A stretch of DNA of 64,000 bases from contig JAKALP010000017.1 of NCBI GenBank assembly GCA_021824175.1, positions 1 to 64,000 of the forward strand. The letters are read 5' to 3'. Position 1 is the stretch's first letter; the number at the start of each line of letters is the position of its first letter. The notes under the pieces were generated by a model. It saw only the letters and a program-made list of their open reading frames with translations, was not told the origin of the DNA and made no database searches. Origin of the DNA: Deltaproteobacteria bacterium. GTDB taxonomy: Bacteria > Desulfobacterota > Desulfobacteria > Desulfobacterales > Desulfosarcinaceae. The translations under genes were made by a program, and so were the position numbers. This document shows, piece after piece, positions 3,086 to 36,528 of this stretch.

Positions 3086-4165
3086 CTATCCGGTCACTAA
3101 ACGCAACACCCATTCGGCGCCATACTTGAACTGGATTTTACGCCATCCCTTTGCCGCCACAGCAAATCCAATCAGCAGCAAGGCTACCAAAATCAAAGTG
3201 ATCGGGGCTGACATGGTTTTCCAGAAGCCGAAATATTGGGCCGACTCGCGGATTGCGGCCACATGAAAGATAAGGAGGGTAAGTGACACCCGGCCTAGGC
3301 AGACCAGCATGTTGGAGACGTCAAATGAAAGCCGCTCATCGATACGCACAAAGGTGTAGACGAACAGCAGGGCCGTCGCGATTAGAAAAAGCGTTATGGG
3401 CGTAAGCGCGGGGTAGAAATTGGTTTTAAACAGAAAAAAGCGAATCCACCTGGAATCATGGGTGAACGCCAGCCCTGAAGCAAACAGGCCGGACAATACT
3501 GCCAGGGCCGCCACCAGCACCGCGGCCATCTGCCATATCTTCTGGATCGTGCCCGCCAGCAGCCAGCGCCCGGCCGCGATGCCGGCCAAAAAAAAGGCCA
3601 GCCAGGGAAAGATGGGAAAAAAACCTTCGGCCAGGGCAAATCGCAGGGCGCCACCTGGTTTGGTGGGTGCAGACATGTCGTTATTGTAAAGCCTGAAGGG
3701 CGTATCCAACCAGGTCTGAATTCCGATGGTGATCACCAGCACCGCTGCCAGCAACGTCAGCACCCCTGAAGTGGATAACCGGCGCAGCATGGGGGCCATC
3801 ATCATGGCCGCCCCGATGAGATGGAGCACATACCACGATCCCATGGTGAACCAGTGCGGCGTCAAGAAATTCATCAAGTAGCCGAACCCCATGATCATGG
3901 CGCCCCGGATCACCAACAACCGGTCACAGTCATCGTGGCGCTGGGCGCTGAAGGTAACCCCCACGCCGGCAAGCAGCACGAAGATGGGCGCGGCCAATCC
4001 CCCCAGGGCGCCGGTGAAAAGCACAACCCATTCATTGTGCTGCTCAATGCCCACCAGCCAGTAGGAAACGTGCTGGGTGATCATTAATAATACCGCCAGC
4101 CCGCGCAGGGCATCGATGGCCAGCCAGCGGGAACCGGCAGTGCGCGATAGAGCTGAAGCGTTCAT
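3086..4165 (-). CDS. HGSNAT-like (DUF1624) membrane acyltransferase
   Basis: The 359-residue protein has about ten hydrophobic segments. Its N-terminus RWLAIDALRGLAVLLMITQH (residues about 12-31) carries the D-x-x-RG signature shared by heparan-alpha-glucosaminide acetyltransferase-like and related acyltransferase-3 proteins, with a conserved His at the end of the first helix. Family members move acyl groups across the membrane onto sugars or other acceptors. A longer open frame runs upstream to 4882, but its extra residues are a shadow of the neighbouring gene. The ATG at 4165 overlaps the TAA of that gene (TAATG), so the two are translationally coupled. This coupling suggests that the acyltransferase and the Lgt/CPBP fusion act on the same envelope substrate. 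The acceptor is unknown. Confidence 0.75.
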   Translation of the reverse strand: MNASALSRTAGSRWLAIDALRGLAVLLMITQHVSYWLVGIEQHNEWVVLFTGALGGLAAPIFVLLAGVGVTFSAQRHDDCDRLLVIRGAMIMGFGYLMNFLTPHWFTMGSWYVLHLIGAAMMMAPMLRRLSTSGVLTLLAAVLVITIGIQTWLDTPFRLYNNDMSAPTKPGGALRFALAEGFFPIFPWLAFFLAGIAAGRWLLAGTIQKIWQMAAVLVAALAVLSGLFASGLAFTHDSRWIRFFLFKTNFYPALTPITLFLIATALLFVYTFVRIDERLSFDVSNMLVCLGRVSLTLLIFHVAAIRESAQYFGFWKTMSAPITLILVALLLIGFAVAAKGWRKIQFKYGAEWVLRLVTG

Positions 4166-5652
4166 TACATTCTCAACATGGGCATGCCGATGCAGCCGAT
4201 ATCGATGATAAAGTGGCAAATGATGGCCGGCGTGATGCTGCGGTTGCGATCCGCCACCAACCCCAGGACAATGCCGTAAATCAAGGAGAAGATCCCCAGA
4301 ATGGCGCCGGCGATCATGAAATGGATGATCGAATAAATCGCCGCCTGCGCCGGAATAGCAATCCATTTTGAATAGTCCGCCCGCCGCAGCAGGCCATATA
4401 GTGCCTGGCGGTACATAATCTCTTCGGCGAAAGCATTCATGAGGCTCAGCATAATGGCCGGCGGCCAGAATATCAATCCGCGCAGCGCCATCGGGCGCTT
4501 GAAGACCAACAGCTCCAGCGAGTAGTAAATGCTCATGGCCAAGCCCACTAAAAAATAAGGAGAGAATTGGGTCCAGCGGTACTGAGACCAGATGGGCAAG
4601 CCGTTGCGTTTCATCCAGGTCAAGGCAAACCATGGCAGCAGCATCATGGGCAGATAAGCTCCCACGCGCAAATAGGCATCGGCCAATGATTCCACCCGTG
4701 AAAATGGCCATGGCCAGACCCGGATTTTTCGGGTCAGATAAAAGATCAAAAAGGTCAACAACACATAGGAAACAACGAGGATGGCCAATGAAAAGAGCTT
4801 GCGGATCTCTCCGGTGCTCTGGAGCGCGATAGGACCAGGCGAATCTGCACTGGCGCTTGGCGCGGCCTGATAGCGCCACCAAATGACCACGAAGAGGCTG
4901 AAGGCAAACAGCAAATAGGCAATCATGGCCAATTGAGCCTGGGTGAGCTCCAGAGAAATGAGGTGCTCCGTGCGGAATACTTCAAACACCATGCGGCCAG
5001 CGGCGTAAATCACAAAATAGAATGCAAATACTGAACCCTGATAGCGTTGCCGGGGCCAGGGATCAGCATAAATAGTGGCGTAAAGGCGTCGGAGGAATAA
5101 AAAGATACATAGATTGACCGCCATATCGTATATGGGAACTGGGTTTTGGAAGGCGATATCCAGACCGTAAAGATTGAAGGCAATGCGATTGCCCCAGCAG
5201 CATCCGATCAAAAAGCAGGCCGAGCGCCCAAAGAAATGGGCCATGGGCACATAGAGATAGATGGTGTCGAACACTTCTAGAAAGTGCAACCGCAGAAAAT
5301 AACAGAAGATAGCGCCGAACACGAGCGGCCCGATCAGGCTGGCGTGGTAGGTGTGAGAGGCGCCGTGGAACATGTTTTCAAAGAAAAATGCAATACTCCA
5401 CTGACTGAATGGTTTATAAAACATGGTGGCCGCGCGGGAACCGAGATACCCGGCCGGAAATGACATCAGGATGGAAAGGACCGTGAAGAGGATCACTCGT
5501 TTTTTAGGATAGCCCAAAGCCAGCAACCGCTTGCCCACCAGTATCAAAAAAACAACTATGACACCGATGATTGTTCCGTAATAGTAGACCTCGCCAAGGG
5601 TTCTCACCCAGGGGTATTTAGCCCCCCAACCGAGATAAGTGATCATAAACAA
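4165..5652 (-). CDS. Lgt-like diacylglyceryl transferase domain fused to CPBP intramembrane protease
   Basis: This 495-residue polytopic protein joins two membrane families. Residues about 15-265 resemble prolipoprotein diacylglyceryl transferase: TYHASLIGPL near 101-110 matches the Lgt HGG-type region, HFFGRSACFLIGCCWG (139-154) the GR-x-x-x-F-x-x-G signature, and AGRMVFEVFR (218-227) the late Arg region. Residues about 320-490 carry the three motifs of CPBP/Rce1-like proteases: EEIMYR at 410-415, YSIIH at 440-444 and HFIID at 480-484. Lgt modifies a Cys in a lipobox, while CPBP enzymes cleave membrane-embedded substrates. The fusion hints at a specialised lipoprotein or lipid-anchored peptide pathway. 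The GCC pair in the Lgt motif differs from housekeeping Lgt, so this is probably a paralogue. It overlaps the downstream acyltransferase by one base. Confidence 0.75.
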   Translation of the reverse strand: MFMITYLGWGAKYPWVRTLGEVYYYGTIIGVIVVFLILVGKRLLALGYPKKRVILFTVLSILMSFPAGYLGSRAATMFYKPFSQWSIAFFFENMFHGASHTYHASLIGPLVFGAIFCYFLRLHFLEVFDTIYLYVPMAHFFGRSACFLIGCCWGNRIAFNLYGLDIAFQNPVPIYDMAVNLCIFLFLRRLYATIYADPWPRQRYQGSVFAFYFVIYAAGRMVFEVFRTEHLISLELTQAQLAMIAYLLFAFSLFVVIWWRYQAAPSASADSPGPIALQSTGEIRKLFSLAILVVSYVLLTFLIFYLTRKIRVWPWPFSRVESLADAYLRVGAYLPMMLLPWFALTWMKRNGLPIWSQYRWTQFSPYFLVGLAMSIYYSLELLVFKRPMALRGLIFWPPAIMLSLMNAFAEEIMYRQALYGLLRRADYSKWIAIPAQAAIYSIIHFMIAGAILGIFSLIYGIVLGLVADRNRSITPAIICHFIIDIGCIGMPMLRM

Positions 5653-6448: not shown

Positions 6449-7336
6449 CTAATTGCAGCCGCTGCTGCTAGTGCTGCTGGTGCTGGAGCTGCTAGAGCTG
6501 CTGGAGCTGGAGCCGCCGCTCTTATCCACCCACTCGAAGCGGGAGGTGCCGGATTGATCGGCGATGGCGCTCTTCTGGGAAGTGTCGCCATCCAGGTAGT
6601 ACTTCATCCAGGCGATCACATCGCCAGCCATTTTGTCGGCGGCGGAGCCGCTAGCGTTGGCCCAGGCCATATGGGAATAACCAGTATATTCCACATACTT
6701 CCTGGAGATGCTGGTAGACAATCCGCTATACTCGCCGCGGGTCATGGAATTGGTGGCCAGGGTGTCGCCCGAGCCGGCCTCGATGAAAGTGGCGGCCGTG
6801 ATGGTGCGCAGGGCGCTGTCGGCGAAGCCTTCTTCATACGGGGCCAAGCCAACGGTGGTCTTCAACTGGTTGGTCAACTGGGAAGAGGCCCACAAAGAGC
6901 CGCCGCCGCCCTTGGAATGACCGCAGGTGGAGAGTTTGCTGGTGTTGATTTTGCCTTTTACATTGGCGTCGCTGGTGTTCAGGCTCTTGAGTTTGGAGAT
7001 GCAGTTTTTATGGGCATCGCGCCACAGGCTGACCATACCATAAGTATTGGAAGGCGTGAAAGCCAGAACCACGTAACCGGCAGCCGCCACTCTTTGGGAC
7101 ATCCATTCGATGGCGCTTAAAGTACCGGTATAGCCGCTGGACATGGAAGTTGCTCCAACGGTGCCCGAGATCGTACAGGGATAATAGAGTTTGGCTGCCG
7201 AAGTACTGCCGATGCCTGAAATGGATTTGGTACAAACACTGGCCCCCAGAGTAGGAGTACTACTGCCGGTATCGCAAGCATAGCTGATCAACCCGATTAC
7301 GCTTAGAACTACGAACAACATAACAGTCTTCTTCAT
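6449..7336 (-). CDS. PETase/cutinase-like lipoprotein hydrolase, paralogue A
   Basis: This 295-residue protein starts at the MKK following GGGAGGGAAGG; an upstream in-frame ATG at 7405 lacks such a site. A hydrophobic leader ends in ISYAC with Cys21 as probable lipid-attachment residue, then Asp at +2. The body is an alpha/beta hydrolase resembling bacterial cutinases and PET hydrolases: YPCTISGTVGATSMSSGYTG at 52-71 matches the segment holding the oxyanion residue, GHSKGGGGSLW gives Ser141, GSGDT gives Asp191 and YSHMAW gives His222. AWMKYYLDGDT near 242-252 matches the family C-terminal helix. After WVDKSGG come about 19 Ser/Thr and a terminal GCN. A secreted polyesterase or esterase is likely; the natural substrate is unknown. 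It diverges from paralogue B. Confidence 0.8.
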   Translation of the reverse strand: MKKTVMLFVVLSVIGLISYACDTGSSTPTLGASVCTKSISGIGSTSAAKLYYPCTISGTVGATSMSSGYTGTLSAIEWMSQRVAAAGYVVLAFTPSNTYGMVSLWRDAHKNCISKLKSLNTSDANVKGKINTSKLSTCGHSKGGGGSLWASSQLTNQLKTTVGLAPYEEGFADSALRTITAATFIEAGSGDTLATNSMTRGEYSGLSTSISRKYVEYTGYSHMAWANASGSAADKMAGDVIAWMKYYLDGDTSQKSAIADQSGTSRFEWVDKSGGSSSSSSSSSSTSSTSSSGCN

Positions 7337-7546
7337 GATAACCTTCCCTCCCATTTTTATTCGACGGTAAAAGCAAGCATAAGTATTAATTTGGATCATC
7401 TCCAATCACACCTTGGTTAAATACACCTCCTATGCATTGGGGATTCATTCCAAAATCTGAGATCATGACCACCACCTCAACAGCCATTATTCTCAGTTCC
7501 CAGAGCTCTTCGCAAAATGAACCGCACGGCCGTACATTGCGTTTAG

Positions 7547-7765
7547 CTGATCCACAATTGCCCCGACATCGGGGTTTCTTTCTTCTGGTGTCAAAGGGGG
7601 GGGGACTTTGACGGGACGCATAATGAATACGCTTCAGGGAATCTAACAGCTTGCAAACCGCATGACAATTGGGGAAACTATTATTATTTGATCTCTGAAA
7701 AGCCTAAATCTATTTTGCATTTTGTAAATTCGCCAACCGGCTTTAACATTATCAGAGTAAATTAA
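7547..7765 (+). pseudogene. Left-arm copy of an unrecognised gene 3' end
   Basis: An open frame without a start codon encodes VSFFWCQRGGDFDG, then NEYASGNLTACKPHDNWGNY and a further 26 or so residues to a TAA at 7763-7765. The right arm encodes nearly the same peptide on the other strand, with differences concentrated at tolerated positions, so both were coding once. Removing one G from the nine-G run at 7596-7604 would join this frame to the upstream reading frame (FLLVSKGG). The family is not recognised. Confidence 0.45.
7584..7706. repeat. Left arm of a 123-bp inverted repeat
   Basis: Read against the reverse complement of 7989-8114, this arm matches closely, including an uninterrupted GCAAACCGCATGACAATTGG core and the adjoining GGAAACTATTATTATTT. 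The arms are separated by 282 bases of AT-rich sequence and carry a homopolymer G/C run at the same place. Confidence 0.8.
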
Positions 7766-7942
7766 ATAATATAATTATAATAGATAATATAATATTTAAT
7801 TACAATTTAGATTTTGATACTTCACCGGCCGTCTTCGTATTTGAATACTTCTATCCTGAAACCTTTAAGTATCAAAATTTGTTTTGTAAGTATTTTTTAC
7901 TTCTTCGCACGCAATTAACTATGTAAAACAAATTTATCCATA

Positions 7943-8303
7943 TTATTTTGTTAACTTGCGGGACAGACAAATGATTTTGAGTAGAATATTAGGCTTTTTA
8001 GAACTTAAATAATAATAGTTTCCCCAATTGTCATGCGGTTTGCAAACTGTTAGATTCTCTGAAGCATATTCATTGGTTTTATTGTCAAAGCCTCCCCCCC
8101 CTCTTTGGCACCAGTAACAACTGACCATTCAAATGAAGCTCGTACGTGCAAGCATCGCAAGAAATGTGTGAGAAGGCGCTGAAGATATCACTATAAACGC
8201 CCATATACTTGGAACTAACGGGCATGAAGAACTCCGCCCGTAATTTCAGCGAGAGAAAATCTTCACGATCCAAGGAGGTGACATAGCCAAGCTTAAGAGG
8301 ACG
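7943..8303 (-). pseudogene. Right-arm copy of the same unrecognised gene, frameshifted
   Basis: A minus-strand frame open from 8303 (with the segment DREDFLSLKLRAEFFMPVSS, then YMGVYSDIFSAFSHISCDAC, ELHLNGQLLLVP) ends in a stop just after an eight-C run (8094-8101). The next frame continues with GGGFDNKTNEYASENLTVC and KPHDNWGNYYYLSSKKP to 7943. One base fewer in the homopolymer would restore a single reading frame of about 120 residues. There is no start codon with a ribosome site. The same homopolymer disrupts the left-arm copy. No family was recognised. Confidence 0.45.
7989..8114. repeat. Right arm of the inverted repeat
   Basis: This is the reverse-complement partner of 7584-7706. It contains CCAATTGTCATGCGGTTTGC and the eight-C run opposite the nine-G run of the left arm. 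Confidence 0.8.
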
Positions 8304-8363
8304 TCATTTAGAAGTAAAATTGTGTGGGTCAATCAACAAACCGAAAAGGGAGGGAAACTGGTC

Positions 8364-9266
8364 ATGAAAAAAACAGTCATTTTGTTGTTGGTTTTAAGCG
8401 TAATCGGGTTGATCAGCTATGCTTGCGATACGGGCACCAGTGAAACGCCTACTCTTGGGGCCAGCGTTTGCACCAAGTCCATTTCAGGCATCGGCAGCAC
8501 CTCAGCGGCCAAACTTTATTATCCCTGTACCATTAACGGTACTGTGGGCGCCACCACTTTGGCCGGCGGTTATACAGAGACCTTGAACAACGTCGACTGG
8601 TTGTCCCAGGCCGTAGCGTCCGCCGGCTATGTAGTGTTGGCTTATACGCCCACCAATACCCTCGGCATGGTCAGTCAGTGGCGCGATGCCCATAAAAACT
8701 GCATCTCCAAACTCAAGAGCCTCAATACGAGCGACGCCAACGTCAAAGGCAAAATCAACACCAGCAAACTCCAGGTAAGCGGTCACTCCAAGGGCGGTGG
8801 CGGTGCTTTGTGGGCCGCAGCCCAATTGACCACCCAGTTGAGAACCGCTGTCCCCTTGGCCCCCTATCAAGAACAATTCGCCAATAGCGCGCTGAGCACC
8901 ATCAAGGCCGCCACCTTTATCGAAGCCGGCGGCGGCGATACCCTGGCCACCAATGCCATGACTCGCGGCGAATATAACGCGTTGCCCACCAGCATTTCAC
9001 GTAAGTACTTAGAATATAACGGTTATGGACACATGGCCTGGTCATATGCCACGGGAGCTGATGCGGCCAGAATGTCCGGCGACATGATTGCCTGGATGAA
9101 ATATTATATGGATGGTGATACCTCTCAAAAGAGCATCATTGCCAACCAGTCCGGCACCACCAATTTCAACTGGGTGGATAAAGGCGCTCCCAGCTCCAGC
9201 AGCTCGAGCACCAGCAGCACCACCAGCAGCACAAGCAGCACAAGCTCGAGCAGCGGATGCAATTAA
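8364..9266 (+). CDS. PETase/cutinase-like lipoprotein hydrolase, paralogue B
   Basis: The 300-residue protein starts at the MKK after an AAGGGAGGG ribosome site; the longer frame from 8322 lacks one. Cys21 in LISYACDTG is the probable lipobox Cys. The catalytic set is Ser142 (GHSKGGGG), Asp192 (GGGDT) and His223 (YGHMAW). It is very close to paralogue A across the leader and the first 60 mature residues, but differs in the specificity loops (for example AGGYTETLNNVDWLSQ) and has Val-Ser instead of Thr-Cys before GHSKGG. Its tail is the longest of the set: about 23 Ser/Thr after WVDKGAP, ending in GCN. A CCCG-type terminator follows. The function is inferred as extracytoplasmic ester hydrolysis. 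Confidence 0.8.
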   Translation: MKKTVILLLVLSVIGLISYACDTGTSETPTLGASVCTKSISGIGSTSAAKLYYPCTINGTVGATTLAGGYTETLNNVDWLSQAVASAGYVVLAYTPTNTLGMVSQWRDAHKNCISKLKSLNTSDANVKGKINTSKLQVSGHSKGGGGALWAAAQLTTQLRTAVPLAPYQEQFANSALSTIKAATFIEAGGGDTLATNAMTRGEYNALPTSISRKYLEYNGYGHMAWSYATGADAARMSGDMIAWMKYYMDGDTSQKSIIANQSGTTNFNWVDKGAPSSSSSSTSSTTSSTSSTSSSSGCN

Positions 9267-9316
9267 TAACAGATAACCATTAGATTGCCTTTGTGGCTTT
9301 CGTTTGAAAAACGATA

Positions 9317-9361
9317 AGACCCGAACCGGCTGCAAGCGCGGTTCGGGTCTCCCTTTTTTTT
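9317..9361 (+). terminator. Intrinsic terminator after paralogue B
   Basis: AGACCCGAACCG pairs perfectly with CGGTTCGGGTCT across a 10-base loop and is followed by CCC and eight T. Confidence 0.9.
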
Positions 9362-9878
9362 GAATTCATGGACTGCCCGTTATTAAATAGCTCGGGGCAC
9401 CACACGCCGACCAATTTTATATTTTACTGTTATGCAACGAAATACATTTTGACAAAAGGTCCGTCAACCTACTCGCAACCTGCCTCCATAAATGCGGCAA
9501 GTCCCTTAATAAGGTTTTGAACACATCAATTTTGGGATTTTCCCCAATTGATACCTCGCGGCCCAAATTGTATATTGCGGACAAAAGCTATTATTTGTTC
9601 GCGCCGAAACAATATAGCATTTTAGATCGATAGCACCACCAATAGCACTTCAAGCACTCTTTGGCGCCTGATTTAATTGATGGTGATCTCGCACTCAAAA
9701 TGCAAGGACAGGGGGGAAATGCCGTTGGAAGGGTGGCATGTTCCTCGGATTGGAGTTAACCAATTAGGCAAAGGAGGATAAAACATCATTATCATTCATG
9801 TTTTTGGCCGCGATCCATTCGATCTTACTTCATTCATCTAATCATTCATCGTAATTACGGGAGGGAGGCAAACGTATC
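9362..9878. other. Intergenic stretch upstream of paralogue C
   Basis: About 500 AT-rich bases with no supported gene. The only clear element is the GGGAGGGAGG ribosome site at its end, shared by all paralogues of the cluster. No convincing promoter could be chosen. Confidence 0.5.
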
Positions 9879-10736
9879 ATGAAAAAAGCATTTACTTTGG
9901 CATTGGCTATTTGTGTGATCGGTTTAATTGCTTACGCGTGCGACGGCGGCAGCACCGGCACCCTGTGCACCAGGAACATTTCCGGCGTGAGCAGCACTTC
10001 GGAAGCCAAGCTCTATTATCCCTGCACCATCACAGGTTCGGTGGGCGCAACCTCTATGTCCAGCGGCTATACCGGCACCTTAAGCGCCATCGAGTGGATG
10101 TCCAACCAAGTTGCAAACGCCGGTTTCGTTGTTCTGGCCTTTACGCCATCCAACACCCTAGGCATGGTGAGTCTGTGGCGGGATGCGCACAAGGCATGTA
10201 TCTCCAAGCTGAAGGACCTCAACAGCAATGACGCCACTTTGCGAGGAAAAATCAATACCAGCAAACTCTCCACCTGCGGTCATTCCAAAGGTGGTGGCGG
10301 TTCATTATGGGCCTCTTCCCAGTTGACCACCCAATTAAAGACCACCATCGGCCTGGCGCCCTATGAAGAAGGATTCTCAGACAGCGCTCTGCGCACCATC
10401 ACGGCCGCCACTTTCATCGAGGCCGGTGCCGGCGACACCCTGGCCAACAACTCCATGACCCGTGGTGAGTACAGTGGGTTGTCTACCAGCATCTCCCGGA
10501 AATATGTGGAGTACACCGGTTATGACCACATGGCATGGGCCAGTGCCACGGGCGCACGCGCGGACAAAATGGCTGGCGACGCCATCGCCTGGATGAAATA
10601 TTACCTGAACGGAGATACTTCTCAAAAAAGCATCATCGCCGATCAATCCGGCACCTCCCGTTTTGAGTGGGTGGATATGAGCGGCGGCAGCTCCAGCAGC
10701 AGCTCCAGCAGCAGCTCCAGCAGTGGCTGCAACTAG
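9879..10736 (+). CDS. PETase/cutinase-like lipoprotein hydrolase, paralogue C
   Basis: The 285-residue product has a leader ending LIAYAC (Cys21), a hydrolase core with Ser136 (CGHSKGGGG), Asp186 (GAGDT) and His217 (YDHMAW), and the AWMKYYLNGDT helix. The core is nearest to paralogue A: SSGYTGTLSAIEWMS and APYEEGF are shared, although A is in the opposite orientation 2.5 kb away. The tail is pure Ser after WVDMSGG, encoded by a 12-base unit AGCTCCAGCAGC repeated almost exactly, then GCN. Such a repeat could vary in length by slippage. A GGGAGGGAGG ribosome site precedes the start and a terminator follows. The substrate is unknown. Confidence 0.8.
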   Translation: MKKAFTLALAICVIGLIAYACDGGSTGTLCTRNISGVSSTSEAKLYYPCTITGSVGATSMSSGYTGTLSAIEWMSNQVANAGFVVLAFTPSNTLGMVSLWRDAHKACISKLKDLNSNDATLRGKINTSKLSTCGHSKGGGGSLWASSQLTTQLKTTIGLAPYEEGFSDSALRTITAATFIEAGAGDTLANNSMTRGEYSGLSTSISRKYVEYTGYDHMAWASATGARADKMAGDAIAWMKYYLNGDTSQKSIIADQSGTSRFEWVDMSGGSSSSSSSSSSSSGCN

Positions 10737-10803
10737 CCAACTTTATTAAATAACCTGCTTAATAGAAGCAGAGCCAACCGTTACAACCTGTTAGTAAATT
10801 GAC

Positions 10804-10841
10804 AAACCCGGACCGCAAATCCAAGCGGTTCGGGTTTTTTT
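10804..10841 (+). terminator. Intrinsic terminator after paralogue C
   Basis: AAACCCGGACCGC pairs with GCGGTTCGGGTTT (one mismatch) and runs into seven T. Confidence 0.9.
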
Positions 10842-11258
10842 GGTGGGCAATCTTTCCGGCCTATCGACTTGAATTGGGGATATGACTGACTCATAATTAG
10901 GGGTTTTACTAATTGACCAATTTTAAATAATGTCTTATTCAACTTCATACATCACAATTTGTCCTGTTTTATACTTTTTTAGAATTTTACCAATAATCGA
11001 TCATGATAACGATTTTTTATTTGCTCTATTGAACACCAATAATGCGCGCTCATTGTTTCGTGTCATAAATTGAAACAGACCTCAGAGGAAAAAGACAAAA
11101 CATGGCTTGCGACCCGAGCCACCGCCGCTGCTATTGTGGGTGCGCCTTTAAAGACAATAGGGGGTGAAGCCGAGTCAATTCGAGGCTCCAAGCACTAGGA
11201 TTGATCCTCGGTTCGATATTTTATCAAGCACCTATTCAAACCAGGGAGGGAGAAAATC
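10842..11258. other. Intergenic stretch upstream of paralogue D
   Basis: About 420 AT-rich bases without a supported gene. A GGGAGGGAG ribosome site closes it. An open frame beginning at 11201 is a shadow of paralogue D. Confidence 0.5.
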
Positions 11259-12128
11259 ATGAAGAAAGCTATTACTTTATTGATGGCATTAACTGTGATC
11301 GCGTTAATCGGTTATGCTTGCGACAGTGGCTCCGGCAGCGGTGTTTGCACCGCCTCCGGCGGAAGCGTGAGTGGCACCTCCGATACACGGCTCTATTACC
11401 CCTGCAATATCTCGGCGCCCACTGGTGCCACCACCATGACCAGCGGCTATACGGGAACCTTAAGCCAAGTGAGTTGGCTGTCCGAACGACTTGCGGCCGA
11501 AGGTTTTGTAGTTCTGGCCTTTACACCCAGCAACACTCTTGGCATGGTGAGCGGCTGGCGCGATGCGCATAAAAACTCCATTGCCCGGCTCAAGACCATC
11601 AATAGCGGCAGCGGGACCTTGCAGGGCAAAATCAACACCTCCAAGCTCCAGACCTGCGGCCACTCCAAGGGCGGCGGTGGCTCGTTGTGGGCTTCATCCC
11701 AGTTGACCACCCAGCTCAGAACCACGGTGGGCATGGCCCCGTGGCAGGAAGAATTCTCCGACAGCACCCTGCGCTCCATCACCGCCGCCACGCTGATTCA
11801 GGCCGGCTCCGGCGACACCCTGGCCACCGGCAGCATGACGCGCGGGGAGTATAACGCCCTGGGCAACATCTCCAAGGCCTATTTTGTTTATAGTGGTTTG
11901 AGCCATATGGCTTGGGCTTCGGCCAGCGGCAGCACGGCCACCACCTTGGCCAACGGCATTATCGCTTGGATGCGCTACTATATGGACGGCAACACTTCCT
12001 ACAAGAGCACTATCTCGAGTTCTTCGGGCAAGACCACCAACATCTGGGTGGATCTGGGCCCTGGCGGCGGCTCAAGCAGCAGCTCCTCCACCTCCAGCAG
12101 CACCAGCAGCAGTGGCGGATGCAACTAA
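11259..12128 (+). CDS. PETase/cutinase-like lipoprotein hydrolase, paralogue D
   Basis: The 289-residue product keeps the family plan: leader with LIGYAC (Cys21), Ser136 (CGHSKGGGG), Asp186 (GSGDT), His216 (LSHMAW), AWMRYYMDGNT helix and a Ser/Thr tail ending SSGGCN. It differs from A-C in the loop after the oxyanion segment and has APWQEEF in place of APYEEGF. APW at that place is closer to known PET hydrolases (AAPW) and is also found in the distant paralogue F. The Ser-rich tail is preceded by GPGGG. A GGGAGGGAG ribosome site and a downstream terminator make it a separate transcription unit. Confidence 0.8.
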   Translation: MKKAITLLMALTVIALIGYACDSGSGSGVCTASGGSVSGTSDTRLYYPCNISAPTGATTMTSGYTGTLSQVSWLSERLAAEGFVVLAFTPSNTLGMVSGWRDAHKNSIARLKTINSGSGTLQGKINTSKLQTCGHSKGGGGSLWASSQLTTQLRTTVGMAPWQEEFSDSTLRSITAATLIQAGSGDTLATGSMTRGEYNALGNISKAYFVYSGLSHMAWASASGSTATTLANGIIAWMRYYMDGNTSYKSTISSSSGKTTNIWVDLGPGGGSSSSSSTSSSTSSSGGCN

Positions 12129-12394: not shown

Positions 12395-13708
12395 CTATGG
12401 ATTGATCCGAAAGACGCCGTCTTCCGCAATCCATGTTTTGGGATAATCTGGGCCATAAATTTCTTCCGGAGGAACTTCTGTAGAGCCTCCCGAGTCCTTT
12501 AAATCTTTGCTGACCGAGTAGACAATCCCCTTGGCTGGGTTATAGCGGAAAGGCTTGCCGTCGAAGGGATCTATTGGCACACTTGAGAGATAAGTGGGGC
12601 ATAGCTCGTCCAGCTGCGAAGGCAGTTTTCCATTTTCCTTCTCAAATAGCTTCAGAGCTACAATTAATTGCGTGGCTCTTATTGAGCCATCCATTTGGCA
12701 CTTGCCTTCGAGGTATGTGTCGATTTCCGGTGTGGTAAAAGCGTAAAAAATTCGTCCGACCACATTGGGCCGGCAATAGTAATACCACATGCTTTGTTTT
12801 TGCAGTCCGAAGTAATCGGTTAAATCATAGATCTTCATCTCAGCATAGTTCAAAGAGGCATTGTGGATGGTATCCCGGTATAGTCCGGCCAGCTTTTGCT
12901 TAGTCTCATTCTCTTTGAAGATGTAAGCAGGGAACCAGGTGGTTTTGCGGATGAAGTAAATCATCAGAGAAGTATCAGGGAAAGCCTGTTCGACATTCTT
13001 GCCGCTGGCTCTGAACCCGTCAATTTGATGGGCGACCTTCTGGAACTTAAATTGAAATGCCCGCTTAAGCCCTGGCGCCAAGGGCTTTAAGGCGGCCAGC
13101 GCTTTGGCCAACAGGAGTAAATCATCTTTTGAGATCGCTTCCGTACGTGCCAAGTCGCCAGCCTGGTTAAGCCCGAGCTGCAATATTTTTAGGCTGGGAC
13201 TGAAGTCCGCAATATTTTGCGTATTTGGATGCAATAGATCTCCAAAGCGCAGTAGTGAAACGGTTGCGTGAACACTTTGGCTAAGCTGGCCGACATGCCG
13301 GCTATGCACTGCCTGCACCCCTAGTAATACCGCTATCTGATACCACTGCTGAATGTACGCTGGTTCTTCCAATAATGGGGGTTGACATTGGTCGAGGGCC
13401 AGTGCTTGATCGATCAATGGAAAGGCCTGTTCGTTTTTCTGCAATAGTTCGGCAATTAATGTATCATAGATCATCTTGCCTTCGATGTAGTCAACGATGA
13501 TGTTAAAATCCGACGGCAAGGTGATCGCGCCAGCGGCGGCGGATAAACGACCGAAAGCGTTTTGATCTTCGGGAATCAGCTGCTTTTCAGGCATGAGATC
13601 CGAAATGTCGGGTGCGGCGATATCGCGCCCACCGATCGTCAACGTCAGCAAAAGGGCGGCCAAGCCAAGAACCAGAAGGATGCATAGAATCTTTACTGTC
13701 TTTTTCAT
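12395..13708 (-). CDS. Membrane-anchored protein of unknown function with GspG-like C-terminal motif
   Basis: The 437-residue product starts at MKKTVK, with GGAGA 13 bases upstream; the longer frame to 13753 lacks a good site. One N-terminal hydrophobic segment (ILCILLVLGLAALLLTLTIG) anchors an otherwise helical, extracytoplasmic body. Near the C-terminus, FEKENGKLPSQLDELCPTYL followed by SSVPIDPFDGKPFRYNP resembles the tail region of pseudopilin-like proteins (the 'YLSSVPxDPFDGKPxxY' pattern), which is also seen in long uncharacterised proteins of Planctomycetes and Verrucomicrobia. No catalytic motif was seen. It lies convergent to paralogue D and has its own promoter region. Function is unknown. 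Confidence 0.6.
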   Translation of the reverse strand: MKKTVKILCILLVLGLAALLLTLTIGGRDIAAPDISDLMPEKQLIPEDQNAFGRLSAAAGAITLPSDFNIIVDYIEGKMIYDTLIAELLQKNEQAFPLIDQALALDQCQPPLLEEPAYIQQWYQIAVLLGVQAVHSRHVGQLSQSVHATVSLLRFGDLLHPNTQNIADFSPSLKILQLGLNQAGDLARTEAISKDDLLLLAKALAALKPLAPGLKRAFQFKFQKVAHQIDGFRASGKNVEQAFPDTSLMIYFIRKTTWFPAYIFKENETKQKLAGLYRDTIHNASLNYAEMKIYDLTDYFGLQKQSMWYYYCRPNVVGRIFYAFTTPEIDTYLEGKCQMDGSIRATQLIVALKLFEKENGKLPSQLDELCPTYLSSVPIDPFDGKPFRYNPAKGIVYSVSKDLKDSGGSTEVPPEEIYGPDYPKTWIAEDGVFRINP

Positions 13709-14087
13709 GGTGCGCCAAAGTCTCCAAATAATAGTAAATAGCAATCGGAACAAGCCATACAGATGATTTGTGGCACGGTCATGCGCAATATCTCCAATGA
13801 ATCATTGCGATTGTCAAATACTTTAAACCAGCAGGACATTTTCATACTACGGGTTCCACGACAGGCAGGGATTTCACTCCATGGGACACAGGAATTCCCC
13901 CAAAAATCTCTTGGAGTTTTCATGCTTTAATACACGATGTTTGATTCTTAGGCCCAAAGATTGTATAGCATCGCATTAACTCGCGCCACTTGAGGGGCCG
14001 GCACAGAGGACCCAACGAGCGCTTGAGTGGATGCTTCAAGAACCAACCGCGAAGGATTAAGCTGAGCCTAATGGGGACGCGGCGGCT
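13709..14087. other. Divergent promoter region, no gene seen
   Basis: This gap between the membrane-anchored protein gene and the first radical SAM gene holds only short overlapping open frames without ribosome sites. It must contain the promoters of both transcription units. No palindrome strong enough to call was found. Confidence 0.4.
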
Positions 14088-30953: not shown

Positions 30954-31817
30954 TTAGAAATTCTTCTTTTCTACGGTCCAGTTGGGGTTGTTGCAGATTT
31001 CACAGCTGCCCGTAAAGGCTTGGGCCGCGCGGGCATCGGCCCGCAGCTGATACATAAACCAGGCGGTGAGATACCCTCTGGCCATACCGGCATTGCCCAA
31101 AAAGTCCATGTGCCCCATGCCCGAGGCAATGCCGAAGATGGTGGGCGCCTTGGCCAGGGCATAACTCATGGAGCGCACCAGGCTGGCCGAGACAATCGTG
31201 TCGGCCGAACCCGCGATCAGGAAAATGGGGCACTTGACCTGCCCAATCTGGCCCGGCGATGGCGCAATGGGAGCCGTGCATTTCACCCGGGCATCGATGG
31301 CCGCATTGATGGCGCCGCCACCGCCCTGGGAGTGGCCGGTGGTGCCAATCAGCTGGGTGTTGAGCTTGCCGTAGAAAATGCTGCCGGCGGTGGCATTCTG
31401 CTGAATTAAGTAGTCGATGCCCGCGATCATCTCTTCACCGCTTTGGGTCATGGTGCTGCTGGAAGCCATTACCACAAAGCCCCACGAGGCCAGATGGGTG
31501 AGCAGTCCGGTATAAGAAAGGGTGGGTGCGCCGGTGCCATTGCCCCAGGTGATGATGGGATGTCCACTGGTCATCGTCCGGGGGTAGTAGATCGTATAAC
31601 CGCTGACGCTGGTGCTGGTGGTGGCGTAAGGACCGGTGGCGGCATACGCCGATTCAATGGCATTGGCGCCGCCGCCGCTGCTACTGGTGCTGGTGCTACT
31701 ACTGCTACTGCTGCTGGTACCGCACCCGCCGCCATCCGACGGCACGCAGCCCGAAAAGGCCATTGTCAAGGCGGCCAAAACAAATACCGCCGATACCCAT
31801 GGTCTGACTCTCTTCAT
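30954..31817 (-). CDS. PETase-like lipoprotein hydrolase with N-terminal Ser linker, paralogue E
   Basis: From the third of three consecutive ATG codons (GGGAG eight bases away), the product is 287 residues. The lipobox MAFSGC gives Cys24, and the mature N-terminus is GGGCG followed by a Ser/Thr run (34-47), so the low-complexity linker sits before the catalytic domain instead of after it. The hydrolase core has WGNGTGAP (oxyanion region), Ser163 in TGHSQGGGG, Asp206 in AGSADT and His236 in GMGHMDF. GHSQGGGG and the Met next to it are frequent in polyester hydrolases and related chlorophyllase-like esterases. The sequence is clearly diverged from paralogues A-D. It probably acts at the cell surface or in the periplasm; the substrate is unknown. 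Confidence 0.78.
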   Translation of the reverse strand: MKRVRPWVSAVFVLAALTMAFSGCVPSDGGGCGTSSSSSSSTSTSSSGGGANAIESAYAATGPYATTSTSVSGYTIYYPRTMTSGHPIITWGNGTGAPTLSYTGLLTHLASWGFVVMASSSTMTQSGEEMIAGIDYLIQQNATAGSIFYGKLNTQLIGTTGHSQGGGGAINAAIDARVKCTAPIAPSPGQIGQVKCPIFLIAGSADTIVSASLVRSMSYALAKAPTIFGIASGMGHMDFLGNAGMARGYLTAWFMYQLRADARAAQAFTGSCEICNNPNWTVEKKNF

Positions 31818-32161
31818 CATCATTCTCCCTTCTCTTTCTTTGGTTCCTAGATTTACTACCTGAACGCGATGCGTTCTGGGTACAATGGATTCTTCCCGCC
31901 CAAAACCCTGAAATGCTCTCTCCCCAGCATGGTCTCACAGAATCAGAAGCAGGAAGGATCGAAACGAATTTGTGGGAATAGTATGATTGCGGCTGGAGGG
32001 GGGCGCCGCAAATTCACTGGGAAATCTCGCCTAAAGCCATTAAGCGAGGCCGTTATTACCTTGCCTGTAGGGTGTTGTAAAGGCTTTGTTACATCGCCTT
32101 TCTAAGAGCAATCGCTGGATTTGGGCCGACCATCGCCATGGTGGTGGACGCCATGCCTTAG
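31818..32161. other. Intergenic stretch upstream of paralogue E
   Basis: No gene seen. A perfect inverted repeat GAACGC-GAT-GCGTTC at about 31863-31877 lies 45-60 bases upstream of the start codon of paralogue E and could be an operator. Confidence 0.35.
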
Positions 32162-32364: not shown

Positions 32365-32688
32365 ATGCCCCAGCAATCGCGGCCGCAGCCAGCCGTTGGT
32401 GCCGACCCGATCAGCCGGCAATAAGCCCTGAATCCAGCGCCCTATCGAGCGCCCCCATGGTTAAGTCAAATTTGACATAATGCCCTGCCCATGGTAATGG
32501 CACCACTTGTTCTTTATCGTAATTATCGAGCCGAAATTAAATCGAAGCCAACCCGTGATGACCCTGAATACCTCAAATGCCGTGTCGTTACCCGTGGCGC
32601 CCGCGGAGCGCCTTTGGCCGTATCTGCGGAGCGCCTCTGCGCATGCGGCGTGGCGCGGAGCTGATTTCAACAGAGGAGAAAAGTGGCC
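32365..32688. other. Leader region of the formate dehydrogenase gene
   Basis: No intact gene. A perfect palindrome GTCAAATTTGAC lies at 32465-32476 and overlaps a TTGACA box (32472-32477), which makes it a candidate operator/-35 element, though the -10 partner is weak. A minus-strand open frame over 32164-32421 (ADRVGTNGWLRPRLLGHQPV) may be another gene remnant, not identified. Confidence 0.4.
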
Positions 32689-35454
32689 ATGGCAGACAAC
32701 CAATTATTGATCAACGGCCGCCAAGTGGCGTTTAAGCCCGGGCAGACCATCCTGGAGGCGGCCCAGGCGGCCAAGATCTGGATTCCGACCTTGTGCTATC
32801 TGAAGGGTGCCACCCCCACCGGCACCTGCCGCATCTGCGTGGTGGAAGTGGCCGGCATGCGCACCTTGCTGACGGCCTGTAACACACCGGCCGCCGCCGG
32901 CATGCAGGTGCAGACTGAATCGCTGAAGGTGGTTGAAGCACGGCGCACCGTACTAGAACTGCTGTTGGCTTCTGGACACCACAACTGCGCCGTGCAAAGT
33001 GAAGGCAGTGGGGATTGGACCGATTACCAGCTTAAAGTGCAACAGCACGACGGCTCGAACGAGCTCTGCCCGGCCTGGGGCGACTGCCAACTGCAGGATC
33101 TGGCCTTCCGCTATCAGGTGAAGAGCGGCCGCTTTGCCACCCTGCCCGGCGCCTATCCCACCGAAATGGCCAATCCGCTGATCATCCGGGACTTCTCCCG
33201 CTGCATTCTCTGCGGCCGCTGTGTGCAGGCCTGCAATGAAGTACAAGTCAACCGGGCCATCCAGTTCGGCAACCATGGGGCCCAGGCCAAAATCGTGACG
33301 CCCGGCGACAAGCCGCTCAAAGAGTCCGACTGCGTCTTTTGTGGCGAGTGCATTCAAGCCTGCCCGGTAGGCGCCCTGGTGGAAAAAAAGGCGCGCTATC
33401 AGTGGCGTCCCTGGAAGGAAACCACGGTGCGCACCACCTGTCCCTATTGCGGGGTGGGGTGCCAGCAACTGCTGCATGTGCAGGACGGCCGCATCGTCAA
33501 GGTGACCGGCGTGGAAGGGGCCGAGCCCAACCAGGGCCGGCTGTGCGTGAAAGGCCGCTTCGGCTACGACTTCATCTACTCCGAGGAGCGCCTGAAGACC
33601 CCCTTGATCAGGGAAAAGGACGGCTTCCGCGAAGCGTCATGGGATGAGGCCCTGGATCTGGTGGCCAGCAAATTCAAGCAGATCATCGCCGAAAGCGGTC
33701 CCGATGCCGTGGCCGGCGTGAGTTGCGCCCGCAGTATCAACGAAGACTCGTACAACATGCAGAAGCTATTCCGGGCGGCCTTCAAGACCAACAATATTGA
33801 CCATTGTGCCCGTACTTGACATGCGCCGACGGTCGCCGGGCTGGCGACCACGTTCGGTTCCGGGGCCATGACCAACTCCTTCAACGAATTTTCCCGGGCC
33901 AAGATGTTCTTGATTATCGGGTCCAACATGACCGAGGCCCATCCAGTGGCCTCCACCTTTGTTAAGAACGCCGTCATCAAGGGGGCCAAGATGATCGTGG
34001 TAGATCCCCGACGCCACAAGCTGGCCGAAATGGCCGATCTGCACGTGCCTGTCCGGGTGGGCAGCGACATCGCCTTCTTGAACGCCCTGATGCACGTGCT
34101 CATTGCCGAGAAGCGCTACGATCAACCATTTGTCAGCTCTTTTACCAAGGACTTCGACAAACTGGCCGCCGGGGTCACGCGCTATACGCCCGAATACGCG
34201 GCCGAGATCTGCGGCATTTCGGCCGAAATGATCCGGAATGTGGCCCGGCGACTCTCTTCGGTCAAGCCGGTGATGGTGTGCTACACTCTGGGCATCACCG
34301 AGCACACCTGCGGCACCCGCAACGTGATGAGCATCGCCAACCTGCAAATGCTGCTGGGCAATATGGGCTTGGAATGCGGCGGCGTGAACCCCCTGCGCGG
34401 CCAGAACAATGTCCAGGGTGCCTGCGACATGGGCGCGTTGCCCAATGTCTTCCCCGGTTACCAGCGGGTGGGCGACATGGCGTTACGCGCCAAATTTGAA
34501 AATGCCTGGGGCGTGGACAACCTGCCCTTTGCCAATGGCCTAATGATCCCCCAAATGATGGAGGGGCTGGTCAGTAAAAAAATTCGCGGCTTCTATATTT
34601 TTGGTGAGAATCTGGCCAACACCGAGCCCGACATTCACAAAGTCGAACATGAGCTGGCTTCGGCTGAATTCCTGGTGGTCCAAGACATCTTCCCCAACGA
34701 GACCACCCGCTTTGCCCATGTGGTGTTTCCAGCCGCGGCCTGGAGCGAAAACGACGGCACCTTCACCAACAGCGAACGCCGCGTCAGCCGGGTGCGCGCC
34801 GCCAGCCCGGCGCCAGGTATTGCCAAGCCCAACTGGTGGATCTTCCAGCAGGTCGCCAAACGCTTTGGCCAGCAGTGGCCCTCCAACAGCGCTCAGGAGA
34901 TCTGGGACAACGAGATCTCCGTGCTGGCGCCCAACCTGGGCGGCGTCAAATACTACCGCATCGAAGGCAACGGCCTGCAATGGCCCTGCCCCACCGAAGA
35001 GCACCCCGGCACTGCTTATCTCCACAAGGAGGGCCGCTTCACCAGCGGGTTGGGAACATTCATGCCGGCCGAATGGACGCCGCCGGCCGAAGTAGCGGAT
35101 AAGGAGTATCCGTGGGTGCTCAGCACCGGCCGACGCCTGGCGCACTACCATACGCGCACCCAGACCGGCCGCTGTGAAGGACTCAACGATATCCTGGGAG
35201 AAGAGACGGCCGACATCTCTCCCCTGGATGCCCAAAACCTGGGCATCGACCACGGTGAGATGATCCGGGTCAGCTCCCGGCGGGGAGAAGTAAAAGTAAA
35301 AGCCAAGGTGACTCCGGAAGTACCCAAAGGCATGGTCTGGATGGCCTTCCACTTCCGTGAGAACAACGCCAACTGGCTGACCAACGCGGTCTTCGACGAG
35401 ATCACCATGACCGCCGAATACAAGGCGTGCGCGGTGCGCATCGAAAAGATCTGA
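32689..35454 (+). CDS. fdhA: Formate dehydrogenase alpha subunit, selenocysteine-containing
   Basis: The frame runs through an in-frame UGA at 33817-33819 in the context CART-U-HAPTVAGLAT, exactly the active-site motif of selenocysteine formate dehydrogenases, giving 921 residues with Sec at 377. Domains in order: NuoG-like 2Fe-2S ferredoxin (CYLKGATPTGTCRIC), His-Cys cluster domain (HHNC...CPAWGDC), two 4Fe-4S clusters (CILCGRCVQAC, CVFCGECIQAC), the catalytic 4Fe-4S motif CPYCGVGCQQ, and the bis-MGD domains through MVWMAFHFRENNANW. It oxidises formate or reduces CO2. A GTG six bases upstream is an alternative start; AGAGGAG precedes both. No partner subunit (NADH- or ferredoxin-linked, or hydrogenase) is adjacent, so the electron partner must be elsewhere. 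Confidence 0.95.
33817..33849 (+). promoter_or_regulatory. Selenocysteine UGA codon and SECIS-like stem-loop
   Basis: The UGA at 33817-33819 is followed after 11 bases by a perfect 7-bp stem, GGTCGCC (33831-33837) with GGCGACC (33843-33849), closed by the 5-base loop GGGCT. The stem position and a G-rich small loop match bacterial SECIS elements of fdhF-type genes, which recruit SelB. Confidence 0.85.
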
Positions 35455-35796: not shown

Positions 35797-36528
35797 TTAC
35801 TTCAAGTAGCGATTCATCCAGGACACCACGTCCGCGCTGATGGCGGCGTGATTGGTGCCTATAGAGGCCCAAGACATGTGATCGGCCGTCGGGAAAACGC
35901 GATAGGCTTTCACGATGCCGATGGGCAGCAGATTGAATTCGTTCATGGTCATGAGAGCGGTGGCCAGGGTATCCAACCCGCCGGCCTGGATCAAGGTGGC
36001 GGCCCGGATGCCGGACAGCGTCAGAAACTCTTCCTGCCAGGGGGCCATGCCGATGGTGGTTTTCAGTTGGGCGCCCAGTGTAGAAGAGGCCCACAGCGCG
36101 CCGCCGCCGCCCTTGGAGTGACCGCAGGTTTGAAGAGCGCTGGTGTTGATTTTGCCCTTCAGGGTACCGCTGGTATTCAGGCTTTTAAGCTTGGAAATGC
36201 CGTTGACGTGAGCGGTCCGCCAGCCGCTGACCATCCCGTAGGGGTTTAACGGCGTCATGGCCAGGACCACATAACCGTTGCCGGCCACATCCCGGGCCAG
36301 CCACTCCACCTCCCTGTAGGTACCCATGAAACCACTGGTCATGGTCGTTGCGGGTACCGCCGAGGAAATGTTGCAGGGATAGTACAGCACCGCGGCCGAT
36401 GCGCCGCTGACCGAGGTGGAGGAGGTGCATACGGAGCCGCCGATGCCACCGCTATCACACCCATAGCTGATCAACGTTGCCAGGAAGAGAACCAATACCA
36501 AAGCCGCCAGTCTGTTTCTTTTTTTCAT
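35797..36528 (-). CDS. PETase/cutinase-like lipoprotein hydrolase without tail, paralogue F
   Basis: This 243-residue relative of paralogues A-D ends right after the AWMNRYLK-type helix (here SWMNRYLK) and has no serine tail or GCN. Its leader ends LISYGC (Cys24). The catalytic set is Ser138 (CGHSKGGGG), Asp186 (GGLDT) and His217 (ADHMSW). APWQEEF and ALQTCGHSKGGGG align it best with paralogue D. The start follows GGGAGG. Loss or absence of the tail shows that the tail is not needed for the fold. It is transcribed towards fdhA and has its own terminator. Confidence 0.78.
   Translation of the reverse strand: MKKRNRLAALVLVLFLATLISYGCDSGGIGGSVCTSSTSVSGASAAVLYYPCNISSAVPATTMTSGFMGTYREVEWLARDVAGNGYVVLAMTPLNPYGMVSGWRTAHVNGISKLKSLNTSGTLKGKINTSALQTCGHSKGGGGALWASSTLGAQLKTTIGMAPWQEEFLTLSGIRAATLIQAGGLDTLATALMTMNEFNLLPIGIVKAYRVFPTADHMSWASIGTNHAAISADVVSWMNRYLK

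Follow-up and report, generated by a model that had tools for sequence, protein, structure and literature searches.

A genus-private clade of PETase/cutinase-superfamily proteins in a sulfate reducer of the Desulfatitalea group, and an Lgt-CPBP fusion gene beside it

Gene cluster, family assignment and taxonomic distribution

The window described here, that is, the whole stretch of 64,000 nucleotides analysed (positions 1 to 64,000 of contig JAKALP010000017.1, assembly GCA_021824175.1, a deltaproteobacterium of the Desulfosarcinaceae), carries a cluster of four genes for PETase-like proteins (paralogues A to D), two further copies near 36 and 31 kb (paralogue F and the 31 kb copy), and, next to the cluster, a gene in which Lgt and CPBP domains are fused (Table 1). 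Paralogue A is oriented opposite to B, C and D. The nucleophile elbow reads GHSKGGGG in A to D and F, each of which is preceded by a GGGAGG-type ribosome site, and GHSQGGGG in the 31 kb copy; both forms had been recognised in an earlier reading of the DNA made from its letters alone (hereafter the sequence-only reading).

All six proteins pass the curated cut-off of 28 bits for PF12740 (PETase, poly(ethylene terephthalate) (PET) hydrolase-like), with scores of 122.6, 121.6, 118.1, 113.8, 92.8 and 58.9 bits and E values from 2.5e-35 to 6.9e-16, so that a chance match is excluded. The four cluster genes lie about fourfold above the cut-off, paralogue F and the 31 kb copy less strongly so. No other Pfam family exceeds its cut-off in a scan of the five GHSK proteins, and the six proteins score 45.0 to 109.9 bits against the NCBIfam BHET hydrolase equivalog NF051441, below its cut-off of 520 bits.

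Across the 6.07 Mb host genome (61 contigs) PF12740 gives 17 matches at E values up to 1e-3, 12 of them with at least 55 bits. One close group is made up of nine intact genes, of which the window has five and contigs C22, C6, C48 and C47 have one apiece, which bears out the expanded paralogue set proposed earlier; a tenth member, on C60, is apparently decayed, its open reading frame (ORF) lacking the N-terminal part and its elbow reading GHPKGGGG. When the profile of an alignment of the nine intact genes (A2) was compared with PDB, the best match was GlacPETase (E 4.6e-55); further PET hydrolases and cutinases followed with E values of 1e-30 to 1e-34. Judged by these profile matches, which agree with the superfamily membership claimed by the sequence-only reading, the nine-member group belongs to the PETase/cutinase superfamily, an assignment that is real and strongly supported. 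The 31 kb copy had been counted among the paralogues; it is indeed a PF12740 protein, but a distant one, with 25–27% identity to paralogue B and best PDB matches to the lipase 2fx5 (E 1.7e-49; from P. mendocina) and to 9w68 (E 5e-48). These and 9hl5 (9w68/9hl5: “PETase”, alpha/beta hydrolase) are its nearest relatives and are irrelevant to the cluster.

The host is a sulfate reducer of the Desulfatitalea group, a member of the Desulfosarcinaceae. A dsrA gene scoring above its curated cut-off lies at C22:258077, on a contig that also carries two strong PF12740 genes, which confirms the anaerobic host expected earlier and shows that the contig bearing those two genes is no stray. A 16S search of this genome returned no gene. 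The accompanying statement that such enzymes are described nearly all from aerobes is weaker than it was put, since an excerpt of Danso et al. 2018 (PMC5881046) lists the Deltaproteobacteria with the chief proteobacterial groups in which PET hydrolases are predicted.

Beyond the genus, few genomes of the phylum carry the family: in an even draw of 395 genomes, which held none of the genus mates with matches listed below, four match at 1e-15, the host genome included. Among 60 genomes, again including the host (labelled G000), PF12740 matches of at least 55 bits were found in the host, in its genus mates G003, G004, G005, G008 (JACRDD), G009 (Desulfatitalea sp. BRH_c12) and G010 (WY2.bin100), as well as in two genomes beyond the genus, G011 and G046. 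G006 has no PF12740 match; it does contain a 37-residue ORF (L129) resembling a leftover C-terminus of the GHSK clade with a GCN end.

Table 1. Coordinates of the features discussed, in window positions
Feature	Position	Strand	Remarks
HGSNAT/acyltransferase-3 family membrane protein	3086..4165	-	Lies immediately downstream of the fusion gene; Desulfatitalea sp. BRH_c12 has the same pair
Lgt-CPBP fusion	4165..5652	-	PF01790 (1.3e-22) and PF02517, CPBP/Rce1-like intramembrane protease (6.3e-15)
Paralogue A	6449..7336	-	GHSKGGGG; poly-Ser tail ending GCN; ORF 6449-7405 can open at 7405, likely ATG 7336
Paralogue B	8364..9266	+	Ser142/Asp192/His223; poly-Ser tail ending GCN; 78% identity to A
Paralogue C	9879..10736	+	82% identity to A over 282 columns; tail ending GCN
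Paralogue D	11259..12128	+	63% identity to A over 281 columns; tail ending GGCN
Uncharacterised protein (GRDI..P.ISDL)	12395..13753	-	A look-alike flanks the BRH_c12 PETase-like gene
31 kb copy	30954..31823	-	Distant PF12740 relative, GHSQGGGG; branch of PDB 2fx5 and 9w68
Paralogue F	35797..36528	-	GHSKGGGG clade; groups with copies from the host's C48 and from JACRDD; Ser tail absent
Ser-tail GCN/GGCN ends	6449-6469, 9246-9266, 10716-10736, 12108-12128		

Phylogeny, active site and selection

Maximum likelihood trees were built from 57 rows, six of them PDB fragments, and repeated with four long rows left out. Sequences with the GHSKGGGG elbow, 19 rows contributed by four genomes of a single genus (G000, G008, G009 and G010), form a clade with support of 100/100, retained at 100/99 in the reduced tree and placed apart from both the IsPETase/cutinase clade and the GlacPETase group. 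The GHSKGGGG group is a genus-private, expanded clade in a sulfate reducer, and no relative of it was found in viral contigs. Within it, paralogues A, B and C make up a trio (100/99) with up to 82% protein identity. A second genus-private clade (13 rows, 100/100) has the elbows GYSK, GFSM, GYSI and GYSL, and a JACRDD protein with a GFSK elbow joins GlacPETase and the Thalassolituus proteins (92/92).

The columns of the catalytic Ser, Asp and His are identical in all 57 rows. In paralogue B, aligned to the known triads, these residues are Ser142, Asp192 and His223; the sequence-only reading had picked the right residues and numbered them one too low (141/191/222). It had also matched an AWM-type helix to the C-terminal helix of polyester hydrolases, and the AWMKYY helix does align with that of GlacPETase and other PET hydrolases. 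Beside the nucleophile, position 143 is Lys in 19 of 19 clade rows, where the PDB rows have Met (four) or Gln (two); the three PDB rows of the IsPETase/cutinase clade all have Met, and part of the second genus-private clade also has Lys. The 19-row clade further has Tyr or Phe at position 70, Tyr or Trp at 168, His at 141 as in the cutinases, and Met or Leu at 224. If Lys143 brings a positive charge close to the oxyanion hole, acidic substrates might be preferred.

GlacPETase (PDB 8x6v) shares with the group the VC...YPC pair, the W-L-x6-GY-V and TP-N-G segments, the triad and the C-terminal helix. It differs in its GFSM elbow (GHSK here) and groups with Thalassolituus proteins outside the genus clade (93/85, or 93/91 without the four long rows). 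IsPETase and the LCC/Thermobifida-type cutinases share the superfamily, the triad and aromatic residues at Y87/W185 (here Y/F70 and Y/W168), and the bacterial cutinases share the His before the nucleophile with the GHSK clade. However, they form a separate clade (100/99), and here Lys stands at the position of Met161 and Met or Leu at that of Ser238. PDB entry 8d1d is an IsPETase variant.

The five GHSK genes of the window are under purifying selection, with dN/dS (nonsynonymous to synonymous substitution rates) of 0.13–0.39 over their ten pairs. Divergent specificity loops had been proposed for the paralogues; the active-site positions tabulated here are conserved instead. The leader Cys (Cys21) is invariant in the nine intact group members, as the sequence-only reading had seen for the cluster; the next residue is Asp in eight of them and Glu in the ninth. 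Lipidation of this Cys is graded as probable only, because the residue at -3 is S, A, G or N and not L.

Ser-rich tails, genomic context and probable substrates

A poly-Ser stretch followed by GCN or GGCN closes the products of the cluster's four genes and of the C22 copy. Of 19 matches to this tail pattern in the host genome, 18 are true C-termini, with one control match. By domain scan the tailed proteins include the five paralogues (PF12740), GH12, GH43, PL11, one PAF-AH, two GDSL, a C1 peptidase, a DUF3237 protein, a PHB-depolymerase-like protein (below cut-off) and a mannanase-like protein; those at L036, L051 and L053 were judged by eye. A scan for SSGGCN gave 24 sites with three control matches. 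Ten had already been read as terminal tails, and the other 14 comprise 12 in long frames (eight in N-terminal linkers, four near C-terminal ends) and two in short frames. We considered and rejected a classical C-terminal sorting signal of the MYXO/Synerg-CTERM kind, which the Ser-rich GCN end resembles. As eight sites lie in N-terminal linkers and no MYXO-CTERM-type membrane helix follows GGCN/GCN at the sites read, the motif is a linker module.

Two loci place group members beside genes for xylan degradation. On contig C48, in the same genome as dsrA, genes for GH30, GH43 with GH43_C2, GH10 and GH62 come after a paralogue (L011:6510-7232) and share its strand. They span L011:612-5968, and such a run of four xylan-degrading genes is uncommon among sulfate reducers. 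In JACRDD, the gene after a sister-subclade member (L029:2754-3584) has a feruloyl esterase as its best PDB match (2e-11); beyond it, GH62 and GH10 are encoded on the opposite strand. The most probable reading, which we hold with moderate confidence, is that these are genus-private surface esterases of the PETase/cutinase superfamily that act on plant cell-wall esters. The enzymes would leave the cytoplasm and, as probable lipoproteins, stay attached to the cell surface, where Ser142 would attack ester carbonyls with His223 and Asp192 by the usual alpha/beta-hydrolase mechanism. Their physiological substrates would be plant cell-wall esters, such as acyl groups on xylan, or cutin and suberin; the released sugars or acids may then be oxidised by the cell with sulfate, and PET-type plastics could be a side activity. 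Xylan, suberin and cutin are named as natural substrates of PETases in an excerpt of PMC13234336.

Several observations weigh against this reading. We infer the substrate from neighbouring genes only. Pfam scans covered 41 window proteins and part of the neighbours at the other stretches, with thresholds from 1e-10 to 1e-2, and among the seven stretches of the host genome (the window, L009, L010, L011, L012, L013 and L014) glycoside hydrolases occur at L011 only. No glycoside hydrolase was found among the neighbours so scanned beside the paralogues of the window or of C22, C6, C47, C60 and C38, nor at JACRDD L025 and L030, BRH_c12 L027 or WY2.bin100 L028. What these loci carry instead are respiratory-complex subunits, a chemotaxis receptor, transport proteins, regulators and other functions. 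Furthermore, GH43 is present in three of 11 genus genomes, and JACRDD (64% complete) and BRH_c12 have the esterases without a GH43 match. As no glycoside hydrolase was seen among the scanned neighbours at the other mapped loci, the plant cell-wall reading draws on two loci and the common tail; within this thin context, plant cell-wall esters are more likely as substrates than plastic.

The sequence-only reading had gone further and called the proteins surface polyesterases. That they are true polyesterases of the cutinase/PETase type, with cutin, suberin, polyhydroxyalkanoates (PHA) or synthetic polyesters as main substrates, is possible but on the unlikely side. Their nearest PDB relative bears the name GlacPETase, and an excerpt of PMC13234336 calls it PET-active; the aromatic positions are kept, and according to the part of PMC6566015 consulted sulfate reducers dominated bioplastic (PHA) biofilms and their reconstructed genomes held bioplastic-degradation genes, although that part leaves open whether sulfate reducers degrade PHA directly. 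Set against this are the separation of the clade from IsPETase and the cutinases, the replacement of Met by Lys beside the nucleophile in all 19 rows, scores far under the BHET-hydrolase cut-off, and xylan genes at two loci, so that polyesterase function is not established.

General surface lipases or carboxylesterases, freeing fatty acids from environmental lipids for beta-oxidation, would suit the Desulfobacterales, which often oxidise fatty acids; the 31 kb copy is closest to the lipase 2fx5, and a class-2 lipase gene lies at 1119-2492. We regard this as improbable given that PF12740 is the only Pfam family above its cut-off in the five GHSK proteins and that carbohydrate-active neighbours recur in two species. 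It is very improbable that the tandem copies are merely drifting duplicates with little function. The truncated C60 copy with GHP for GHS and the G006 remnant look like such decay, but the triad and reading frame are kept in nine copies of the host genome, dN/dS is low, and relatives are maintained in three other genomes of the genus.

If the preferred plant cell-wall reading is true, a sulfate reducer need not leave the opening of ester-decorated plant polymers to fermenters but has surface machinery of its own for it, and PETase-like folds with an unusual active-site lysine have multiplied in such an organism. The group would also be an anaerobe source of polyester- or acyl-esterases from clades other than those of the known enzymes used for comparison. 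No paper joining Desulfatitalea with a PET hydrolase or a glycoside hydrolase was found in the literature search, and we make no claim to a first report. As a separate observation, TetR_C_36 regulators adjoin PF12740 genes in two species, two at L009:12524-14000 beside the second C22 gene and one at L027:6707-7447 in BRH_c12; shared control is possible.

Lgt-CPBP fusion and other window features

The CPBP half of the fusion matches the MrtS (7.7e-10) and MrtJ (1.6e-6) models, both below cut-off, and retains EExxxR and HxxxD as read from the sequence. Homologues with 55–62% identity occur in G003, G005 (partial), G008, G009 and G010 (partial), and the remainder of the 60 genomes searched gave weak Lgt-region matches or none. 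All six fusion-bearing genomes, the host included, belong to the genus and have PF12740 genes; G001, G002, G006 and G007 have neither the fusion nor a PF12740 match, and G004 has a PF12740 match without the fusion. On an rpoB tree (G005 represented by a partial rpoB; G007 and G008, with no rpoB row, left out) presence of the two agrees in two to three of three independent pairs and is never opposite (p 0.25–0.5), which is not significant because the independent pairs are too few.

Gene order also recurs. The window reads HGSNAT, fusion, four PETase-like genes and a gene for an uncharacterised protein, and BRH_c12 reads 2-oxoacid:ferredoxin oxidoreductase pair, TetR, PETase-like, uncharacterised, fusion and HGSNAT. 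The uncharacterised protein has no Pfam or NCBIfam match and its BRH_c12 look-alike no Pfam match. In G003 no PETase-like gene was found near the fusion in the 16 kb read.

A direct link between the fusion and the strict Ser-rich tail was tried and rejected: clear enrichment of the tail is confined to G000, G008 and G010, and the fusion-bearing G003, G005 and G009 lack it. A wider GC(N/D) pattern does occur at the ends of hydrolases in G003 and G009, and also on the short leftover in the fusion-less G006.

The pairing of Lgt and CPBP domains has a parallel in the myxosortase/MYXO-CTERM system, for which an excerpt of PMC11980579 proposes lipidation by an Lgt-like acyltransferase, followed by CPBP cleavage, at an invariant Cys. 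Here the two kinds of domain are fused in one protein, which is encoded beside probable surface hydrolases. In contrast to that system, no membrane helix comes after the GCN motif at the sites read, and the motif is found in N-terminal linkers as well. One may tentatively picture the fusion as a dedicated surface-anchoring enzyme whose Lgt half lipidates the Cys and whose CPBP half cleaves beside it, for hydrolases with Ser linkers, so displaying an esterase and glycosidase kit that attacks plant polymers; we consider this doubtful. The evidence for a role in surface anchoring is suggestive, and the motif test was negative. If true, the fusion would be a natural match to the Lgt-like step proposed for MYXO-CTERM processing; it makes the current question of Cys lipidation and CPBP proteolysis testable.

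Elsewhere in the window, a formate-dehydrogenase-like molybdoprotein is encoded at 32683-35454 (+). It is split in ORF lists by an in-frame TGA within CART-U-HAPTVAGL, which probably encodes selenocysteine.

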